From: a virus
Strand: one strand, 5' to 3'
IMG/VR virus record: IMGVR_UViG_3300024518_003885
Span: 1 to 25,121 of that record
Length of the DNA stretch: 25,121 bases
How positions within the stretch are numbered: the first letter of the stretch is position 1; each line of letters starts with the position of its first letter. Position numbers and translations under genes: made by a program. The notes beneath the pieces were generated by a model. The model searched no databases and had not been told where the DNA came from. It saw nothing but the letters and a program-made list of their open reading frames with translations. Positions 2,491 through 3,549 of this stretch are shown here, in pieces.

Positions 2491-3549
2491 ATGGCCGCCA
2501 CGCCAACCCCCGCCACCGCCACCGATCCCCCCGCGCCCGATTACGAGGAGACCCTCCAGGAGGAGGCCGATCGCCTCACCACCCCCGCGCCCGACTCGCC
2601 GCCGTTTTTGCGCGCCGCCGCCAAGGCGGTCGCTCACGCCGCCGCACAGATCGACGACGCCCGAGGGTTCGGGCGCGTCTATGTTCGACCCCACTTCGCG
2701 GGCGGTCGCGTCATCGTCGAGGCCACCGACGGCCACCGCCTTGCACGAGCCATCTTCGCGGGCGACCTCGACGCCCCATTCAGCCTATGCCCGAAGGCCG
2801 CCGCGGCCGGCGCACTGACGCCCCTCGATGGCCTCGGCTTCGGTGAATGGCCCGACACCGGCGCGATCGTCGACGGCCCGATCGAGGGCCTCGCCGGCGG
2901 CGCCCGGGGTGTGCGGGCCGTCGTCGACCGCAAGGTGCTCACCGCGGCGATCAGAACCGCCGCCGATCGCACGATCGCCGTCGCCGCCGCCGTCGCCGCC
3001 GCCAAGGCCGCCAGGGTCGCCCGCGATGCCGTCACCGCCGCCCGCAAGGCCGCGGTTGCCGCGGCTCGTGCCGGGGGCGTCAAGGGCGCGATCGCCATGG
3101 CGCGACGCGACTTCGACGACGCCCACCGCAAGGTACAGGACGCCTACGACAGCGCGACGGCCGCGGTCACTCAGGCGCGCGTGCAGCACGTCAAGATCAC
3201 GATCGACGAGAACGACCCCGCCGTCGACGGCGGGGCGGTGCTTGTCGAGGCGGCCTGGTCGAACCCGAACCCATGGCCGCGGCGGCCGGGCGACGGCGAC
3301 GGCGACGGCGACGGCGACGGCGACGGCGGTGGGTGGGCGCGCGCGCTCGCCGAGGTCGAGGGCAACGACACCACGTTCGGCATGGACGCCCGATACCTGC
3401 TTGCCGCGCTGCGGTCGGTGGCGCCTGGCCGCGGCGGCCGCGTGGCCATCTATCAGCGATCGCCGCTGGCGCCCGTCGCCGTGGCGTCGATCGATCGCGA
3501 CGACGGGATCACCTGCGCCGAGGTAATCATGCCGAGGAGGTTGGACTGA
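2491..3549 (+). CDS. DnaN-like sliding clamp, divergent, with Ala-rich insertion
   Basis: A 352-residue protein with AGGAG five bases before its ATG. Two beta-clamp signatures are visible: ATDGHRLARA around D80, the pattern seen in clamp domain 2, and a C-terminal F-x-x-x-x-Y-L-L-A-A-L segment from F296 followed by SPLAPV and a final IMPRRL, which matches the end of clamp domain 3 (YLLDAL...SP...VMPMRL). Between them, a likely domain 3 helix (DRKVLTAAI, from about 146) is broken by a roughly 70-residue alanine-rich, probably helical stretch (about 156-228) and a GD dipeptide tract (267-279). The N-terminal 35 residues are Pro/Thr/Ala-rich. It would tether the phage polymerase to DNA. A canonical three-domain clamp is about 366 residues; here one domain seems missing or heavily changed. 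The clamp assignment is inferred from motifs. Confidence 0.68.
   Translation: MAATPTPATATDPPAPDYEETLQEEADRLTTPAPDSPPFLRAAAKAVAHAAAQIDDARGFGRVYVRPHFAGGRVIVEATDGHRLARAIFAGDLDAPFSLCPKAAAAGALTPLDGLGFGEWPDTGAIVDGPIEGLAGGARGVRAVVDRKVLTAAIRTAADRTIAVAAAVAAAKAARVARDAVTAARKAAVAAARAGGVKGAIAMARRDFDDAHRKVQDAYDSATAAVTQARVQHVKITIDENDPAVDGGAVLVEAAWSNPNPWPRRPGDGDGDGDGDGDGGGWARALAEVEGNDTTFGMDARYLLAALRSVAPGRGGRVAIYQRSPLAPVAVASIDRDDGITCAEVIMPRRLD
3289..3324 (+). repeat. GGCGAC hexanucleotide tandem repeat (six copies)
   Basis: Six uninterrupted copies of GGCGAC inside the clamp-like gene encode a (Gly-Asp)6 linker. Because the unit is six bases long, copy number changes stay in frame. Slippage could vary the length of this acidic linker. 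Confidence 0.9.

Follow-up and report, generated by a model that had tools for sequence, protein, structure and literature searches.

The window, a whole virus record of 25,121 bases, encodes a 352-residue protein (2491–3549, plus strand) related to the bacterial beta clamp (DnaN), though diverged from it and without domain 1. The half-domains that form the clamp's peptide pocket, the first half of domain 2 and the second half of domain 3, are its best conserved parts, and the surfaces that close the ring seem to be lost or altered. In our evenly balanced judgement, the protein would be a docking module descended from a DnaN lacking domain 1, which does not build the canonical ring and uses its pocket to bind clamp-binding peptides.

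Relationship to DnaN and domain layout

The reading frame is preceded by an AGGAG-like ribosome-binding site and exhibited strong coding periodicity over its whole length (GC by codon position 0.77/0.58/0.88). Because this periodicity matches that of the adjacent polymerase and helicase genes, in the insertion as well, we regard the frame as a real gene. Its product carries the motifs ATDGHRLA (78–85), YLLAAL (302–307) and IMPRRL (346–351), and no close relative of the whole protein was found among the phages, viral contigs and genome contigs searched.

The DnaN relationship proposed in an earlier note made from the sequence was borne out by half-domain profile scores, a PHROG 947 match and the predicted fold of domains 2 and 3. 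PHROG 947 (DNA polymerase processivity factor; E=1.5e-8) aligned in two stretches, residues 38–105 on profile positions 133–199 and residues 287–351 on positions 307–365 of 368; since the matched stretches begin at profile position 133, no part of the protein corresponds to domain 1. Pfam searches returned no match, either for the intact protein or after removal of its insertions, and the NCBIfam DnaN model TIGR00663 scored a sub-threshold 11.9 bits at the ATDGHRLA region (cut-off 137.65). The PHROG 3007 profile reached E=0.038, over residues 43–87 only.

We then scored the protein with profiles for four modules, the half-domains of domains 2 and 3, built from fetched phage DnaN loci (80 loci of mostly full-length phage DnaN and 80 of mostly short relatives). 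Residues 30–98 were recognised as the first half of domain 2 and residues 290–352 as the second half of domain 3, with none of 500 shuffles scoring as well in either case (Table 1). With the insertions spliced out, the middle module scored 6.7 bits as the first half of domain 3 (1/500 shuffles) and 4.3 bits as the second half of domain 2 (4/500); because an earlier, cruder shuffle test had given 30/1000 for the domain 3 assignment, we treat this as modest evidence. The expected absence of domain 1 was confirmed, with no match, a 34-residue low-confidence tail in its place and a structural match that starts from about DnaN residue 128; the order of domain 2 followed by domain 3 was likewise upheld. 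Two full clamp domains, as had been suggested, were not recovered: the second half of domain 2 went undetected in residues 90–145 (−1.7 bits, 58/500 shuffles) and is poorly modelled, its beta sheet being missing from the predicted model at residues 99–138.

Table 1 Features of the clamp-relative gene and of its neighbours in the window
Feature	Position	Strand	Evidence
Helicase, C-terminal part, cut by window edge	95..1792	+	phrog_62 E=1.9e-12; relatives L001, L002, L233
Acidic Pro/Thr-rich N-terminal tail, residues 1–34, replacing domain 1; contains PDYEETLQEEADRLTTP	2491..2592	+	pLDDT <50
Domain 2 first half, residues 35–98, with pocket TDGHRL (79–84)	2593..2784	+	19.9 bits, 0/500 shuffles
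Domain 2 second half, shortened/degenerate, residues 99–138	2785..2904	+	−1.7 bits, 58/500 shuffles; pLDDT 52–76
Domain 3 first strand and start of first helix, residues 139–160, RGVRAVVDRKVLTAAIRTAADR	2905..2970	+	domain 3 fragment alignment
Ala-rich helical hairpin insertion, residues 161–229	2971..3177	+	helices 147–194, 197–228; pLDDT mostly 79–86
Domain 3 second and third strands, residues 230–256	3178..3258	+	predicted strands 233–239, 249–253
Gly-Asp loop, residues 257–280, third/fourth strand turn of domain 3	3259..3330	+	DNA repeat; low pLDDT 257–278
Domain 3 fourth strand and second half, residues 281–352	3331..3546	+	residues 290–352: 20.1 bits, 0/500 shuffles
188-residue protein, same replication cluster	3744..4310	+	similar proteins near some related polymerases
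Family A DNA polymerase	4469..6931	+	PF00476 E=5.8e-14; phrog_17 E=6.4e-35

An unconstrained alignment of domain 3 fragments alone, at default settings, placed the first strand and helix on RGVRAVVDRKVLTAAIRTAA, passed over the helical insertion, placed the second strand on VQHVKITID and the third on AVLVEAAWSNPN, and passed over the GD tract before running on to the C-terminus, where residues 281–352 hold the pocket elements Y302 and VIMPRRL. Assignment of residues 139–160 and the hairpin to domain 3 rather than domain 2 is favoured, short of proof.

Both the alanine-rich helical insertion and the (GD)6 tract noticed earlier are present, and in the favoured layout both interrupt domain 3. There the helical insertion does not separate the two domains but falls within domain 3, where the first helix meets the second strand; in E. 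coli beta this corner is the one that closes the ring. At the DNA level both insertions are simple-sequence repeats: the GD tract is coded by a perfect (GGCGAC)6.7 repeat (3289–3328), and the helical insertion contains 6/12-bp and 21-bp (seven-residue) repeats (stretches 2957–3003 and 2986–3053). Both look like slippage expansions in loops. The second helix of the hairpin is significantly amphipathic (2/2000 shuffles); the first is strongly basic (+8), and its amphipathicity is not significant.

Structure prediction found a clamp fold made of domains 2 and 3. The preferred model, for which an alignment of DnaN relatives was chosen because it matched the proposed domain layout, gave a pLDDT of 71.6 and a pTM of 0.68, and every one of its top PDB matches was DnaN; residues 33–351 superposed on DnaN residues 128–366 with Z of about 21 (best 21.6) and an rmsd of ~3 over ~210 residues. 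In this model domain 3 is complete, with its first helix drawn out into the hairpin. Together with the weak sequence signal, the prediction supports a domain 3 that is complete, in which a hairpin of roughly 70 residues lengthens the first helix and a flexible Gly-Asp loop comes later.

Peptide pocket and ring-closing surfaces

We compared the protein with two sets of E. coli beta residues given in a review (PMC11139829): those of the peptide pocket (152, 155, 172, 174–177, 242, 246, 247, 320, 323, 344, 360 and 362–365) and those of the dimer interface (I78, F106, I272 and L273, plus R103, E298 and E304). By residue numbering, most of the pocket lies between domain 2 (first half) and domain 3 (second half), and its residues P242, R246 and V247 come from where domain 2 ends; at the ring interface, the first half of domain 3 meets domain 1 (second half). 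In the alignment, 11 of the 18 pocket residues are identical (E. coli numbering: T172, G174, H175, R176, L177, P242, Y323, V360, M362, P363 and R365), although P242 lies within a poorly modelled stretch. The other seven are changed (R152A, L155F, R246A, V247I, N320D, V344L and M364R); peptide binding is therefore not assured, and this is our main reason for caution. On the interface side, I272 and L273 align beside the hairpin corner.

With domain 1 lost, domain 2 degenerate in its second half and the hairpin placed where domain 3 closes the ring, the protein would not be expected to form the usual ring. By the pseudo-symmetry of the clamp, a trimer lacking domain 1 would have to join domain 3 of one chain, through its first half, to the second half of domain 2 in the next. 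The inference from two domains to a trimer, drawn in the earlier note, accordingly stands only in part: the loss of domain 1 and the complete domain 3 of the model agree with it, and the contact surfaces that it needs are altered.

Mini-clamps and the replication gene cluster

Searches by tblastn and in viral contigs revealed many phage proteins of 170–230 residues that consist of DnaN domain 2 and the last half of domain 3, here called mini-clamps. Their PHROG 3007 label, "RusA-like Holliday junction resolvase", appears wrong for these DnaN fragments (for example L061:4998–5579 and L071:3947–4459); the record of one of them, Bcep43 gp15, itself notes a DNA Pol III b subunit fragment. Counted over 43 non-redundant members in E. 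coli numbering, R152, H175, P242 and Y323 are kept in 43/43 and M362 and R365 in 42/43, and interface positions 272, 273, 298 and 304 are missing in all 43. Mini-clamps form a common class with a near-invariant pocket and a deleted ring interface; the 352-residue protein, though not typical of this class, shows a like combination of retained pocket and lost ring surfaces. Our literature searches returned no description of mini-clamps, nor of a DnaN clamp with such an insertion.

In BcepC6B and Acinetobacter phage 4316 the mini-clamp gene directly adjoins a family A polymerase, but a general link between the two is unsupported: a family A polymerase lay in the fetched flank of only 4 of the 77 loci. 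Two further sets of candidates were discarded: a tblastn match in Stenotrophomonas phage Moby proved to be the antisense of another gene, and the clamps of Thermus phage Lalka8 and Tunturi_4, taken as short, have full-sized genes of 355 and 361 residues.

The clamp-relative gene lies between the helicase and polymerase genes (Table 1), and the PF00476 and phrog_17 matches upheld the family A polymerase that had been reported near it. The helicase frame is without the N-terminal Walker A part found in its three relatives, and a 17-bp repeat (GCGCAAAGAGCAAAAGA, about 2 copies, 3701–3733) stands just upstream of the gene at 3744. A clamp-binding peptide sought in the polymerase was not found, its sole match, QVLFL, being within a catalytic motif; a convincing one was absent from all phage proteins encoded in the 25-kb window, and no clamp loader was seen within the 25 kb. 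Phage-encoded partners may lie outside the available ~25 kb of the phage.

We also inspected 46 records, the window and others chosen nearly all for a related polymerase. In 44 of the 46 a PHROG 947 match was absent, the exceptions being the window and G007, and in L233, a sister phage, the cluster of helicase and polymerase genes contains no clamp. Judged by these records, the gene appears either to have been acquired in this lineage or to have diverged quickly within it. The G007 record encodes a 251-residue mini-clamp (P0010, L064:1219–1974) and a related family A polymerase that is not adjacent to it.

Part of the N-terminal tail, APDYEETLQEEADRLTTP (window 2533–2586), recurs as APDYEETVEEEAERETTP in L233, on the minus strand near 10251, within an unrelated 453-residue protein, possibly as a shared linear motif or a trace of recombination. 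Two proteins near a related polymerase (L001:3961–5568 and L001:8232–8969) contain long PQ repeats; replication clusters of this type seem often to include simple-sequence linkers. Elsewhere in the window, a beta-propeller (PQQ_2-like) protein (18430–19794, minus strand) adjoins baseplate and tail fibre genes.

Interpretation and comparison with known clamps

In the docking reading, the ancestor would be a bacterial-type beta clamp that lost domain 1, and the retained pocket would bind short clamp-binding peptides of replication proteins. The likeliest partners would be proteins of the host, such as its clamp loader or polymerases, and the protein would act as part of the replication gene cluster that the phage itself carries; a new oligomer or partner contact may come from the hairpin. 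More broadly, and only tentatively, we propose that phages have repeatedly reduced the beta clamp to its peptide-binding part, with ring surfaces discarded or replaced, giving non-ring docking proteins by which replication proteins of the host are recruited or trapped; these would include the mini-clamps of 170–230 residues and the present protein, with its helical hairpin grafted where the ring would close.

A true two-domain sliding clamp, closing as a trimer like T4 gp45 or PCNA and lending processivity to the neighbouring family A polymerase, appears unlikely to us. In its favour, domain 1 is absent and domain 3 is complete in the model; six domains per ring, as 2x3 or 3x2, is the general rule (PMC9690074); viral clamp-fold proteins of 211–258 residues do exist, among them the processivity factor of Bacillus phage Sam46, and the gene belongs to a replication cluster. 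The trimer is weakened, however, because both surfaces that it requires are altered, and the polymerase without a clamp-binding peptide, the clamp loader not seen in the 25 kb and the 44 records without a PHROG 947 match also speak against it. The protein could instead be built as a mini-clamp is, from domain 2 and no more than the last half of domain 3, and the hairpin would then lie inside domain 2. This would concern architecture rather than function and is compatible with the docking reading; we nevertheless find it rather unlikely. The number of recognisable half-domain modules, three, is as in mini-clamps, and the middle module also scores as the second half of domain 2, yet it scores better as the first half of domain 3, and the model from an alignment of mini-clamps and domain 2 first halves was worse (pLDDT 65.3, pTM 0.56, best Z 13).

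It is improbable, in our assessment, that the protein serves host takeover, mimicking a clamp without being able to form a ring, and halts replication of the host by occupying its clamp loader or polymerases. A beta mutant unable to close the ring bound the loader subunit delta about 50-fold more strongly (PMC11139829), and the retained pocket halves, the lost ring surfaces and the lack of a phage-encoded partner peptide in the window would fit such a role, but the gene is placed among replication genes rather than early takeover genes, and the seven pocket changes count against it. A decaying, non-functional clamp gene that accumulated slippage repeats is very improbable: both insertions are repeats in the DNA and close relatives were not found, whereas the intact 352-residue frame, its constant codon periodicity and ribosome-binding site, and the pocket motifs conserved at both ends point the other way.

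Sliding clamps are textbook rings. If the docking reading is correct, a clamp relative that keeps the pocket and not the ring surfaces, encoded next to the replicative polymerase of a phage, would show that pocket function does not need the ring; the idea is directly testable in the mini-clamps, which are widespread, hidden by their RusA-like label, and occur in easily grown phages of E. coli and Salmonella.

Among known systems, DnaN (TIGR00663; PF00712/PF02767/PF02768) and full-length phage DnaN (PHROG 947) match the protein by sequence in one half each of domain 2 (the first) and domain 3 (the second), and have in common with it the predicted domain 2 and 3 fold and most pocket motif residues. 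Unlike three-domain DnaN, it has neither domain 1 nor a recognisable second half of domain 2, and it adds the helical hairpin and the Gly-Asp loop inside domain 3. The PHROG 3007 mini-clamps (Bcep43 gp15, BcepC6B gp31 and EP23 gp08) are likewise without domain 1 and keep the pocket halves, but they retain the whole of domain 2, are missing the first half of domain 3, carry no hairpin and have a far better conserved pocket. With the T4 gp45 and PCNA trimers the protein would have in common a two-domain, clamp-type protomer, whereas there is no sequence match to them, its sequence and best structural matches being to DnaN, and its ring surfaces are altered. The Sam46 processivity factor is a short phage clamp-fold protein whose likeness is a structural match (TM-score by target 0.65), and its 217 residues leave no room for insertions of this size. 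The herpesvirus processivity factors of the UL42/UL44 type, which have the clamp fold and do not encircle DNA, may serve as a working analogy (PMC9690074), although the 352-residue protein is net negative (−7), with a first long helix that is basic (+8).
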